Source: Nannobrachium achirus (lineage: Eukaryota > Chordata > Actinopteri > Myctophiformes > Myctophidae). Taken from it: a stretch of 64,000 nucleotides of DNA. The number at the start of each line of letters is the position of its first letter. The first letter of the stretch is position 1. Shown here piece by piece: positions 2,511-62,800 of the stretch. The position numbers and the translations under genes are program-made. Under the pieces are notes generated by a model. The model saw only the letters and a list, made by a program, of their open reading frames with translations, was not told where the DNA came from and ran no database searches. The stretch is from the NCBI GenBank assembly GCA_963921795.1, contig OY997639.1, forward strand, positions 58,599,195-58,663,194, given 5' to 3'.

Positions 2511-2567
2511 CACCGAAAATAGCAGACCTCCAAGCTCACAACGCATCGCAGTCGGCTATTTTCGGTG
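2511..2567. repeat. Palindromic cassette, isolated copy
   Basis: CACCGAAAATAGC on the left and its exact inverse GCTATTTTCGGTG on the right. The inner right arm is shortened. Confidence 0.8.
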
Positions 2568-2569
2568 TG

Positions 2570-3920
2570 TGAAACCACACTGAACTAAGCATAATCAAGT
2601 CAATACTGGAGATGTGGCGTAATGGCATGGATTTCTACACAGAGAGGGCAATTCTTTCAAGTTCAGGAGAGTTTGGACAAGGCAATTCTCTTGAATGCTG
2701 CCTTCAGGTATGGCATGGAAAGAGGGCATTTGCATTTCTTTCACCATAGTAAAAACTGCATTTATGGTCTGGAAAGGGTAAAAAGGCAGGGGCTCAAGCC
2801 CCCTTTGATGTCTATGTGTGCACGTGCCTGTTGACAGCCTCCGCTGGAAGCCGACTGTTGTGAGAGATTTTACTTGACATTCTGGGTGAAGCTTGGGTGA
2901 GTCACTGCACATTATTAAAACCATGGTGTTTGTTGGCCCATTCCTCATTATTGAACAGGTCTGGCAGACCGGCAAATCAACAGTAATGCAGAAAATATTT
3001 CGCCATGATATTTCCCTCAAATGAGATGATTGCATCATCATGCAGATAAATTGCCCTTCGCAGAAGCGAACGGAGGGGTTTCTGGAACTGAGGGGAAATC
3101 GGCGTCTTCCTTCGTGAACCCGACGCTTTGTGACTTGTGTTTATTGTTTTAGGATCCCGATACTCGTCTAAATGAGATAGGTGAAAACTCAGATCACAGT
3201 CACATGATATCTTTGTAGTCCAGCCAACTTACATTTTTCTTCATCTTGACCAGTGTGTAGCATGTGCTCCCGCATGCATGTGGTGTGAATGTGTGTGCAC
3301 AAGTACTTTTTTTTTACGCCGTGACTTTCTCCCCCATCTCCCTTTGTGTGTGTGTTGATGTGAGTGTATGTGGAGTTGTTTGGGTATGGCCAAGTGAGAG
3401 AAACAGTGGATTGAATAACTCCAGGCTTCTCCCCTGTGGAATGGTCCCCCTCATTGAATGGAGCGTTGTCTCCCAGGCCGAGCGCCGGCCTTGATTTGGA
3501 GCCAGGAAACCCAACTGTCCCTGTCCATCAGTGTGACGAGACCAGCTGAGGATAAACCCAACGACCTGCGGCCCGAACACATCACCGGGGAGGGGCGCCA
3601 ATACTGGGTACTGGGGGTACATGGTTTGGTTGGGAGAGGGTAGAGGGGTAGTGAGGTGGAGAATGTTGAGATAAGACAAAGAGTCAGGGTATGAGAAATG
3701 GGTGGGGATGACAGGGGATTTGGAAAGCTATGACCTCGGATACTGGGAAGTGGCATACTGGATCAGGGTCAGGCATAACCATGGGTGGGCCTAGTCTGTC
3801 AATCATTATGCAGTTTTTTGGGAACGTTTTCAGAGGATTTACTCCCAGCACCACCAACATTTTATGCTGTAGAAATGCAGATTAGATCTGTAGCAAACAT
3901 GTATGATGATAATGATTGAG
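2570..3920. other. Unique sequence, no gene seen
   Basis: Includes a 148-codon open frame on the minus strand (2595-3041) without recognisable similarity, splice context or domain. I do not regard it as a gene. Confidence 0.45.
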
Positions 3921-4179
3921 AACAAATTAACTTGACAAGTGACACGTTTGACGAGATATAAAGGTCCGTCCAGCGTGCCACCGGCGACTTTGACAAGATA
4001 TTAGTCTTTCATATTTATAAAAGAATATCAAAAAAATGTATCTCCGCAACGTAGTGCCGAAGTGGCCAAAAGAAAGTGCTTCCTGTCTGGACCGGATATG
4101 GAAACCGATTCTCCATTGACTCCCATAAACTGTGCAAGAAAATGCAAGATGGTGCACGATCTGTGCACGATCCGTGCAC

Positions 4180-4225
4180 CATTGTGCACGATGGAGACGC
4201 GACCACGTTAAAAGGTAAGAAAATC
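4180..4225 (+). other. Repeat-borne mini-exon: ATG, short frame, GTAAG donor
   Basis: CACGATGGAGACGCGACC then ACGTTAAAAGGTAAGAAA, one of three related copies. Confidence 0.5.
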
Positions 4226-4595
4226 TGGAGTCACTGAGTTAAGAACAACTCAGTTGAAAGTACAAATGCCACAAAATGTTAACACAGCCTTTTCCGCTTC
4301 TCCACCGATTCCGCTTGGTCCGATCGCATTGCTTTTTCACAAACTAAGCAGCCTCCCTGGCAGGCTGACCCGAGTAACTGGCTGACGTGTGGCCTTTGTC
4401 TATCGTTGTTATTTCATCACGTGTCCTTGGAGAATCTCCATTGAAACACAGTGGTAGCAAACTCCATTGTATTGTACTGTACACTTGAGGGGATTGTTGT
4501 AAACAACTAAACCCTGCAGCGCTGCCTGTATCACAACCATCTTCTATAATAACTGCTCACCTTAACTATTTGGACTATGATGAAGTTATCTAGTA

Positions 4596-4880
4596 CAATG
4601 GTTCTCAACCTGTGGGTTGGGGTCCCCAAATTATTTTGGGAGGTCCCCAGATGTTTAGCTAAATGTTAACATTGTTCTCCTACTCAACAGTAAACAGACC
4701 AACATACAGTATAAATGTATCTGCACATTTCTAAAGTGACAATTTAAGGCCTTTAAAGACCTTTTTAGTACCCCTGGTCAAACATTGGTCAAATATTAGA
4801 GGCAGAAATTTTGAAAATAGCCGATCTACATGCTCACAATGCCTCGCATGTAGACCATGTAGATCGGCTATTTTCACAAT
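4596..4880. mobile_element. Family A MITE, right end truncated, with cassette
   Basis: Left end CAATGGTTCTCAACCTGTGG. Cassette 4812-4878 with the CTACATGCTCA variant. Confidence 0.8.
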
Positions 4881-5129
4881 AGATCGAGTCGAACTAAATG
4901 TAATGCCAACTCCTACAATTCCAAGTGCTCGAAATCAAGGGGCGCTATTTCGGATACACATTTATAGGCGTAGGTTAAGGTACTATAAATTCACAGGAGA
5001 CAGGTGCCACAGTTAGGGTATTAAGTGTCGTAGTGGGGTTCTGATCCGAAGGAGTAGTCACTAGTAAGACGCCTCAGGGAGACATGCGAGGTCGCGCCAA
5101 TTCTTGGCCACCTGGTCAGTGATGTATAT

Positions 5130-5560
5130 CGGACCAGGTACCCATATATGGAGACCCCTGGGACCCATATATGGAGATCCATGTACTGTATGGAGATATG
5201 CTGTGAGATTCCAAACATGCTTACTCAGTTATTCGTTATTATGTGAAAGTCCTATATGACATCTATGACATCTGGCATCATACCCGTGTATGCCCATACA
5301 TGGAGATGCCTGTCTGTCGAACCAGCCACACAGATATGGGCTGTCTTGGCCATCTGTCTTTGCCATACATGGATTCTGTTAGTGTGGTATGTGGCCGATG
5401 TGGCCTCCATATATGGGCATTCCCATATGAAGTCCTGTTAGATATGGACTTAATATTGCTGACATCAGGGAACTCCATATATGGGCATAAAAGGGATTCT
5501 GTTAGTGTGACATCACAGTGACGTCAGAGCATGATGTCAGAGCGACAAACCCATATATAG
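5130..5560. promoter_or_regulatory. Cluster of four perfect CArG boxes plus a CRE-like site
   Basis: CCATATATGG occurs at 5142-5151, 5165-5174, 5407-5416 and 5475-5484. TGACGTCA is at 5519-5526. The surrounding text repeats CATATATGG-like and GGATTCTGTTAGTGTG units, so it may be a local repeat and not a designed enhancer. Confidence 0.35.
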
Positions 5561-5656
5561 AACCACAGTGTCAGGCGTGACAGACAGAGATACACACATA
5601 CAGACAAGCTGTGACTGTTTACATACTAATCTGCGACCTACAGTCGCAATAACAAT

Positions 5657-61376: not shown

Positions 61377-61507
61377 CTGATACCATGGAAACAAAGACTG
61401 TTAGACATCGTGTTGGTTTATCAGCATCAGACAATCCCATCTTATTCTTTCCCAACTCCCCCCCCCCCCCCCCCAGGTTATTCTTGTCTCTTTTGGTCTC
61501 TCCTCAC

Positions 61508-61636
61508 CTTGTCCAGTTTGAGCTTATCCAGGTCGGCAAGGAAAGGGTTAACGGCCTTCTCCCCCACCACCTTCATGGCCGTGCCCAAAGCTTCAAAAGC
61601 AGCATCTCGGACATCTGGGGCAGAGTCATTCACTTG
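61508..61636 (-). CDS. ckap5: ckap5 TOG2 final exon, intact
   Basis: Forty-three codons, phase 0 at both ends, containing [20 protein letters not shown] and [20 protein letters not shown]. This is the signature end of the TOG2 HEAT array of CKAP5, and it is the passage that identifies the gene. Acceptor CAG and donor GTGAGG are consensus. The length is exactly that of the family. The exon is unbroken and strongly conserved, which argues that any loss of function is recent. Confidence 0.93.
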
Positions 61637-61710
61637 CTGACCCGGTGAAAAAGGAGACATTGAGAGGAAAGGAAATGGGAAAAAAGCGAAGAAAGCATTA
61701 TCATTTAGAC

Positions 61711-62050
61711 CAGGGGTCTTCAACAGGGGGTCCTCAAAATCTTTGTGACTTTTTTTTCCTCCTTTTTTATATTAACCACTTGAACCCTAGCGGCGTTGTG
61801 AGCTTGTAGATCGGCTATTTTCATCAAAGAGCTTTTGTGTAGAGGGGAAAAGAGTGAAAGGTCAAGTTTAAGTATTGACAGTTCAAGTGGTTTAATATAT
61901 GAAAAAACTAATTGACATGAATGCAAAATAAACTGATGATCGTGCTGTTTAACAATGAAACTATATTGAATCTATGAAAAGTTGTGGGGGTCCCTGCTTC
62001 ATCTCTCTCTCAACTAAGGGGTCCTTGGCCTGAAAACGTTGAAGACCCCG
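61711..62050. mobile_element. Family B MITE (CAGGGGTCTTCAAC ends), ckap5 intron
   Basis: Left end CAGGGGTCTTCAACAGGGGG, right end CTGAAAACGTTGAAGACCCC. Only the right half of the central cassette survives (61790-61822). It matches the other family B copies over the segments for the intervening GAGAGAGATGAAGCAGGGAC region. Confidence 0.75.
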
Positions 62051-62156
62051 CCCTGGTTTTGAGGGGAAATCTGAGGAATAGCTTGTTGCTCGAAAGTTCT
62101 CATTGCATTAAATAAAATCCTCTTAATGGGAGCCATTAGTTGTGCATATCTTTCCG

Positions 62157-62363
62157 CTCTAATCTACTATAGTTTAGTGTACTGTACCTTGAGGAAGGCA
62201 GCACAGAGAGGTTTGATCTAATCTACTATAGTTTAGTGTACCTTGAGGAAGGATCTAATCTACTATAGTTTAGTGTACCTTGAGGAAGGATCTAATCTAC
62301 TATAGTTTAGTGTACCTTGAGGAAGGATCTAATCTACTATAGTTTAGTGTACCTTGAGGAAGG
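62157..62363. repeat. Tandem copies of a ckap5 exon end and splice donor (37-bp unit)
   Basis: Four exact 37-bp units occupy 62216-62252, 62253-62289, 62290-62326 and 62327-62363. Each contains, on the minus strand, the last 11 nt of the ckap5 exon (CCTTCCTCAAG) and the donor GTACAC plus intron sequence. A fifth, diverged copy at 62157-62215 also repeats another 17 nt of the exon. The result is five potential splice donors in series. Confidence 0.9.
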
Positions 62364-62507
62364 CAGCACAGAAAGGTTTGAGGAGGCTCTTGGGCAGCGT
62401 GGCCTGCGTGCAGTGTCGAAAAGATCTGGCCAGGAAGAGAGAGGCCTGCTAGGGTTCTTATTGTCCATAACACCCAGGACGTCCTCCGAGATCTTCTGGA
62501 GATTGGT
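62353..62507 (-). pseudogene. ckap5: ckap5 TOG2 exon with 10-nt deletion
   Basis: Begins [20 protein letters not shown], then the matching frame changes and resumes as [20 protein letters not shown] followed by [11 protein letters not shown]. The exon is 155 nt against an expected 165 nt (55 codons). The missing codons correspond to the conserved IKQQ stretch. A 10-nt loss is not a typical single-base sequencing error. The donor AAG|GTACAC is one of a series of tandem copies, described separately. Confidence 0.85.
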
Positions 62508-62539
62508 CTGGAAGAGAAGAGCAACAATAACCATTAGTC

Positions 62540-62800
62540 CAATTACAGTATTACTTTGTGAGCTTGTAGATCGGGTATTTCCACTATCAATGTTCTTTTT
62601 TAAGTATAACATTTTCAAATATGTCAGTAATGTCTTCGTATATTTAAGTTATGTGTCATATCTACCATGTTCAACTTCAAAGCCTAAGAGTCAAACCAAA
62701 ATGTAATTGTCAACGGCAAACACAATTAAATCGTTAAACGCAATTATTTGAGTGACAATTAATCGTCATGTAAAATGTCATAATGGTGACAGCCCTAACC
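62540..62800. mobile_element. Family E MITE fragment (GGGCTGTCAC ends)
   Basis: Right end reads AATGGTGACAGCCCTA. The internal text (TTCTTTTTTAAGTATAA, GTGTCATATCTACCATG) parallels the full element at 5657-6011. A half cassette is at 62556-62586. Confidence 0.65.

Follow-up and report, generated by a model that had tools for sequence, protein, structure and literature searches.

A conserved hairpin core in MITE families of at least two target-site classes in Nannobrachium achirus, probably spread between families by nesting

Introduction

Among fish transposons, the Angel elements of teleosts and the internal inverted repeats of Tol2 are reportedly palindromic miniature inverted-repeat transposable elements (MITEs), one of which is said to lie inside a hAT transposon, and amplification based on hairpins has reportedly been proposed for them. 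We know of no claim, for Angel or Tol2, of one core common to several families. The closest precedent for such a core is provided by the CMITEs of the coral Acropora, which have different terminal inverted repeats (TIRs) and share an internal stretch of 75 bases, better conserved from family to family than the ends are; its authors suggested that this stretch acts in transposition and described the origin of a new element through insertion of a CMITE (PMC2872659, cited from part of its text). In Atlantic cod, hAT-derived MITEs that are non-autonomous and internally palindromic have been called nested and chimeric (PMC12368964, likewise cited in part). Here, we analysed a stretch of 64,000 nucleotides from Nannobrachium achirus (Myctophidae; assembly GCA_963921795.1, contig OY997639.1, positions 58,599,195 to 58,663,194 of the forward strand), hereafter the window, in which a short hairpin, hereafter the core, recurs inside several MITE families designated by letters.

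The families of N. achirus resemble the CMITEs in combining different TIRs with a conserved shared internal region. However, the CMITEs, as far as the cited part of their description goes, have TTAA target-site duplications (TSDs) and a link to piggyBac, whereas TSDs of 8 bp and 4 bp are found here. The main text on the CMITEs contains neither the string "palindrom" nor the word "hairpin", whereas the core is a hairpin with changes mirrored in both arms, and its arm word, unlike the CMITEs, reaches about 10^5 occurrences. The cod MITEs are also hAT-derived and non-autonomous with internal inverted repeats, but in the cited part of that paper they are subfamilies of one ancestral hAT family, arranged in tandem at inversion breakpoints, whereas the core described here is found across families. 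No report of the core was found among the top matches in the open-access full-text literature, the part consulted of a review (PMC2874221) contains nothing on it, and words of its sequence returned, among the matches listed, only three unrelated papers. We consider it probable that this core is the conserved hairpin of a guild of non-autonomous DNA transposons, moved with its host MITEs and spread between families by nesting.

Results

Abundance and form of the core

A 12-mer of the core arm, allowing at most one mismatch, matched the window 53 times (0.25 expected; largest shuffled count 2), and the arm with up to 5 substitutions matched 74 times. Matches with up to 4 substitutions pair into 46 places, 23 of which have both arms and which mostly measure 69 bp end to end, in agreement with the roughly 46 full or partial copies in 64 kb counted in an earlier note on this DNA. 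The 1.66-Gb genome contains 98,716 exact matches to a 24-base arm word (reversed control, 0) and 208,824 matches to a 16-place arm word followed by a non-T 19 bases further on. These two figures count arms rather than cores, since one full core can hold two, and they are lower bounds, as are the other genome word counts below. A profile search (E up to 1e-3) recovered 31 copies in the window and 48, many of them partial, in 20 other 10-kb stretches. Because these 20 stretches were unselected, being chosen by round coordinates alone, the core is a genome-wide repeat; extrapolation from them gives about 400,000 genome copies, a rough figure since copies cluster.

The commonest core is 69 bp long and consists of AAATAGCNGATCTACAAGCTCACAACGCCTCGC, a 3-base loop and the reverse complement; the core of family C differs from it in the inner part. 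Pairing extends some 10 bp outward beyond the 69 bp, giving an overall hairpin of about 70–90 bases, and folding of single-stranded DNA yielded -30.8 to -33.4 kcal/mol (z -10.6 to -13.4) in all four copies tried. In one locus (L029:7520-7700; L-numbers denote loci fetched from the same genome), half-arms of the core stand in direct tandem with a 35-bp unit, as if the core were turning into a satellite. An Rfam scan of the window gave no match, and one family B copy compared at a loose threshold gave 24 matches, mostly to microRNA hairpins and all below the gathering score; identity with a microRNA or another Rfam family was rejected on this ground. The single match of the core in the viral collection (IMG/VR) lies in an apparent phage coding sequence and is attributed to chance, and a 20-base core word is absent from the bacterial contig collection. 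No transposase domain was detected in the 10 scanned of the 84 open frames of at least 100 codons in the window.

Hosts of at least two target-site classes

The ends of families A, B, C, D, E and F are all present in the window. Hosts were sought as terminal repeats with exact 8-bp TSDs across all fetched DNA. The window and the 20 unselected stretches yielded 23 such candidates, some of them low-complexity chance pairs; core arms (loose match) were present in 12 of the 23 and, by hand count, in 10 of the 12 candidates that start with CAG or CAA. Exact 8-bp TSDs identify B, C, E, G, G2, H, I and K as hAT-like MITE hosts. All eight have short TIRs of the CAG/TAG-GG type (for example CAGGGGTCTTCAAC, CAGGGGCGTCACAC, TAGGGCTGTCACAA and CAGGGACGTGCTGG), which is characteristic of hAT elements. 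Family A gave no exact 8-bp TSD among five candidate TIR pairs, some of which are not clean A elements, and no family F element was found among the matches of the exact-8-bp-TSD searches. One family A element (33284-33697) lies, within window positions 33150-33750, between two copies of about 50 bp of another sequence, the left of which stops some 25 bp before the element.

Unit D has the ends CGTCGTTGTCGGGTGG and exact 4-bp TSDs in four of five complete copies (ATAT in three, ATTT in one), the fifth being the core-less copy L043. Because its TSD is 4 bp, D does not show the 8-bp duplication of hAT elements, and with host TSDs of 8 bp and 4 bp the TTAA duplication of the piggyBac type was not found. 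The core is thus shared by MITEs of at least two TSD classes, which upholds the earlier view that families with different ends carry one module. D had been listed there as one more host family; it does carry the core, but some of its copies are nested in other MITEs (6937-7508 and 59110-59545 in the window), and copies were found inside three different MITEs with 8-bp TSDs.

Insertion of D into a core-free MITE

One acquisition of the core could be traced. The flanks of D in the hAT-like MITE G, joined without D, form the sequence TTATATTTACTTTGTTGGCC, and this exact 20-base word occurs twice in the genome, against 0.003 occurrences expected under even base composition. At both loci (L044 and L045), the sequence read shows a G element that contains neither D nor the core; L044 measures 517 bp, with the TSD GGAGTTAA on both sides. 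D occupies the same site of G in three composites with different 8-bp TSDs, namely TAACGCAT in the window, CATAGCTG in L022 and ATTATCAA in L042, and the composite therefore most likely transposed as a hAT-like element. ATTT repeats flank D in these composites (exact by script in L022, by eye in the window copy and L042). Without D, the L022 composite is 313 bp long, compared with 517 bp in L044; 234 of 270 aligned bases are identical, about 240 bp of the L044 interior are missing and some 40 bp are absent from L044. A core-bearing MITE thus inserted into an unrelated hAT-like MITE, interior sequence of the host was lost, and the composite then multiplied. The left-junction word of the composite has 5,928 genome copies, and an interior word kept by both core-free G elements and absent from the three composites read has 72 (two of these places were read). 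The contrast is suggestive only, since the junction word holds just 8 bases of G and a chance rise is possible.

Mirrored changes and divergence of the core

Differences between families are largely mirrored in both arms. Among ten hand-picked representatives (B and G2 each twice), two-sided changes occur at 23 of 45 pairs (7–14 when slid), and the covariation score is 0.269 (0.071–0.095 slid). These changes run through the hairpin interior as well as the outer arms; inverse flanks therefore need no earlier palindrome. Within families, only 4 of 60 substitutions are mirrored private changes (0.9 expected). Seven of the ten representatives have a mismatch at arm position 8, where the consensus of B, D and G2 has C in one arm and A in the other, that of A has these two bases in reversed order, and that of C is symmetric.

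The bases outside the core had been described as inverse to each other, and they are so for about 10 bp: own-pair identity is 0.41–0.89 at positions 1–10 except position 6 (0.30), compared with 0.28–0.46 after position 1 for shuffled partners (44 full copies, families not equalised). This and the other tests on 44 copies include loci fetched for holding the core, one near-duplicate stretch (L004) and unequal family numbers. Across 21–26 hand-picked host contexts, with one flank per family, the first nine outside bases are alike (z 5.9–7.6), chiefly the first two; positions 3–9 are weakly alike (z 1.5–2.8) and positions 10–18 are not. A version of this test that mixed left and right flanks of the same families gave an inflated likeness. 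The outer arms are thus partly shared and partly family-specific, with neither extreme proved.

Family B copies depart from their consensus at 5 of 321 sites in the right core half, compared with 144 of 2,100 in the adjoining arm (Fisher p 5e-5). This count uses 10 of 13 copies, 6 of them loci fetched because the other core junction is damaged, and leaves out L009 (fetched for an exact core), L022_1952 (misaligned by a tandem duplication) and L032 (lacking core letters). In pairwise comparisons within B, C, D and G2, divergence is lower in the core than in the arms, with the caveats that C arms align badly and that in D, and on one side in G2, the outer 10 bp diverge no more than the core or even less; two A copies are too few for this comparison. 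In the alignment of the ten representatives, the internal region is more conserved between families than the rest, the mid-arm being largely near-fixed and the inner and outer parts variable. Selection among the multiplying copies and conversion between copies are both compatible with such low core divergence, which does not separate the two.

These data bear on a neutral explanation, in which the core brings no benefit, its carriers are families that happened to multiply, and its arms are kept alike by template switching. This process is known as a source of mirrored changes (PMC8794818, PMC8604942, both cited in part), the former paper reporting in its cited part that it creates and maintains perfect stems, and family copy numbers vary widely for many reasons. 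Against this, chance alone would not account well for a core less diverged than its adjoining arms in B, for the same pairwise direction in C, D and G2, or for a mid-arm nearly fixed across ten representatives. We regard neutrality as a tenable explanation that falls short of being the likely one.

Position of the core and autonomous relatives

The core had been placed near the middle of its hosts. Its centre indeed lies at 0.40–0.63 of the length in all 13 elements measured outside family C; C is the exception; as had been noted, it holds two cores, one at about 0.22 and the other at about 0.8 of the element length. The C elements at 6434-6891, 39939-40493 and 44877-45417 have one core toward either end, which shows that a central position is not obligatory. 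The search for an autonomous partner started from 1,653 first-look candidates, 150 of which scored as hAT dimerisation domains; none of the six transposase loci scanned, a small sample, has host TIRs at both ends. Loci L047 to L051 represent a hAT family with a transposase dimerisation domain, 92–99% identical in the aligned parts and with no core arm in the shared part. In L047, core arms flank the hAT transposase on both sides, but outside the part common to its relatives (957-2350).

The central position would be expected if each MITE originated when gap repair of an autonomous element was interrupted, with a patch in the middle copied from the abundant core, and B and D do look as if they were founded with the core (see below). 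Such filler capture at birth leaves the insertion of D into G and the two cores of C unexplained, and no autonomous parent with matching ends emerged from the six transposase loci. It is possible, though in our view doubtful.

Hosts without the core

Copies of B and D without the core bear on whether it moves as an element of its own. A family B word adjoining the core occurs at 6,617 genome places, at 193 of which the three junction bases contain no T. Among 12 of these exceptions that were read, core sequence is still present in eight, both host halves without a core are present in three (L030, L032 and L036, with three different junctions), and one (L041) lacks the other host half. In D, the core junction is missing in 55 of 5,852 places; of the two exceptions read, one keeps half a core, and L043 has lost the core exactly between two CTA triplets, a loss that may reflect deletion at the base of the hairpin or, with lower probability, exact excision. 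No clean empty site was thus found in 13 of the 14 B and D exceptions read, the remaining one (L043) being ambiguous. Most of these exceptions look like deletions of the palindrome, and it seems that both families already had the core at their founding. Two family A copies considered as empty sites were rejected: L024 retains a core remnant, and L039 is a lone copy whose junction word occurs once in the genome.

Flush direct repeats of at least 4 bp around the core are mildly in excess (23 versus 16.1 with shuffled partners, sd 3.1; 44 copies). Repeats of at least 5 bp number 10 versus 6.6 (sd 2.3), six of the 10 being the TTGAA/TTCAA repeat of family C; repeats of at least 6 bp number 1 versus 2.2, and none reaches 7 bp. 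A constant flush TSD of the core alone therefore has no clear support among these copies. By eye, a candidate 8-bp direct repeat (AAAGCTCT/AAAGTTCT) surrounds the core in family B; the general test gave no clear excess.

The earlier note had proposed an element that enters the tips of hairpins or cruciforms, that is, an autonomously mobile palindrome leaving inverse rather than direct repeats. The inverse and largely family-specific outer bases, the precise loss in L043 and the mild excess of short repeats would suit it. However, the hairpin interior, which cannot be a target, is mirrored just as the outer arms are, clear flush TSDs and clean empty sites are wanting as described above, and the one traced entry was made by the whole TIR element D with its own TSD. 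A tip-targeting mobile element is accordingly unlikely; of the earlier interpretation, the module shared by unrelated families stands and the mode of entry finds little support.

Features of the window

The features located in the window are listed in Table 1. Three further repeats were observed: a 13-bp minisatellite at 50755-51186 in two facing arrays (TTTGTATCTGTGA, then its reverse complement), forming a large imperfect palindrome; a 14-bp minisatellite, GACACCAGGATACT, with about 60 copies at 10100-10912; and a 37-bp unit repeated four times at 100% match at 62215-62363, perhaps a recent expansion.

Table 1. Core hairpins and core-bearing elements in window coordinates
Feature	Coordinates	Strand	Evidence
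Full 69-bp core in family B MITE	18646..18714		both arms
Family B hAT-like MITE, TIR CAAGGGTCTTCAAC/CAGGGGTCTTCAAC, TSD CCCTACTG	18480..18963	+	exact 8-bp TSD
Family B MITE, core 21282-21350	21059..21503	-	TIR pair and core
Family B MITE, core 38890-38958	38639..39095	-	TIR pair and core
Core in family B relative, one base change mirrored in both arms	48043..48111		arm pairing and comparison
Family C hAT-like MITE, cores 6510-6559 and 6750-6818, TSD CTTGGCTG	6434..6891	+	exact 8-bp TSD
Family C MITE, cores 40032-40100 and 40351-40419, TSD GCCTCACT	39939..40493	+	exact 8-bp TSD
Family C MITE, two shortened cores 44991-45042 and 45283-45329	44877..45417	+	TIR pair and cores; no TSD reported
Family E MITE, TIR TAGGGCTGTCAC, TSD ATAACAAT, core 5790-5837	5657..6011	+	exact 8-bp TSD
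Family A MITE, TIR CAGTGGTTCTCAACC, core 33423-33491	33284..33697	+	TIR pair; no exact TSD
Core in family A copy	43875..43943		arm pairing
Composite: hAT-like MITE G (TIR CAGGGACGTGCTGG, TSD TAACGCAT) holding D, core 7191-7259	6937..7508	+	D left end 7110; right end by eye
Composite: MITE, TIR CAGGGTTCCCCAATTA, TSD ATCTATGA, holding D with shortened core at 59311	59110..59545	+	exact 8-bp TSD
Core in unit D copy	22358..22426		arm pairing
Core in family F, TIR 8774-8788	8579..8644		arm pairing; left end by eye
Core in family C copy	17233..17301		arm pairing
Core in family C copy	19267..19335		arm pairing
Shortened core in A-like element (CAGTGGTTCCCAAAC at 32668)	32737..32805		arm pairing
Core reduced to outer arms, next to flanks resembling a D relative	25370..25401		arm pairing; kinship by eye

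Discussion

The favoured explanation, a conserved hairpin moved with its hosts and passed on by nesting, would work as follows. The core most likely does not move alone, and would be copied within a host MITE by whatever transposase serves the ends of that host. Its passage from one family to another would chiefly begin with a core-bearing MITE inserting into a second MITE; the resulting composite would then lose interior sequence and multiply. Families A, B, C, E and F may have gained the core by the same route and subsequently lost the donor ends. Mirrored changes could arise from template switching between the arms, from selection for pairing, or from both, and the core may be kept because it aids propagation.

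Several observations weigh against this explanation. The traced transfer is a single case, and in the other hosts no clear remnant of a donor is visible in the flanks beyond about 9 bp. Of the loci that carry the traced case, the second core-free G (L045) has no matching 8-bp TSD, the L042 composite (fetched for a damaged junction) keeps part of the core only, and the copy-number contrast between composites and core-free G could be a founder effect. The mismatch at arm position 8 would not be left by complete homogenisation of the arms. When all 13 family B copies are counted, the contrast between core and adjoining arm shrinks to 17 of 387 versus 185 of 2,724. Further out, 23 of 325 flank pairs score at least 10, compared with 8.1 expected from letter shuffles; by eye, this excess consists of AT-rich runs and a true kinship of B and M, which form the best pair.

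Descent of all hosts from a single hAT MITE with a core, the remaining parts having become unrecognisable through divergence, would suit the hAT-like nature of most hosts with a known TSD, the arm sequence shared by B and M, and the presence of K and L among the 14 best flank pairs, but it is very improbable, being already contradicted for D, which has different ends and a 4-bp TSD, and for G, whose core belongs to the inserted D. The situation that the earlier note had named as fatal to its idea, a single ancestral superfamily with no core-free hosts, was likewise looked for and not found: core-free G exists, and D is not hAT by its TSD.

That the module is retained because it helps its carriers had also been suggested. 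Both the low core divergence in B and the copy numbers of the G and D composites agree with this, and the benefit itself stays conjectural. Under a more tentative extension of the nesting explanation, the core might be a transferable amplification module. Acting as a DNA hairpin or a paired protein-binding site, it would enhance the propagation of every MITE that takes it up, whichever transposase that MITE uses, so that members of different superfamilies would gain the core by nesting and outgrow their core-free relatives.

It is an old question why some MITEs reach enormous numbers while their parents do not. A core found across two TSD classes, together with an acquisition followed by high copy number (an order read from the nesting), offers a concrete sequence with which a transposase-independent effect on transposition can be tested. 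Nesting followed by trimming is, moreover, one way in which new MITE families get assembled.

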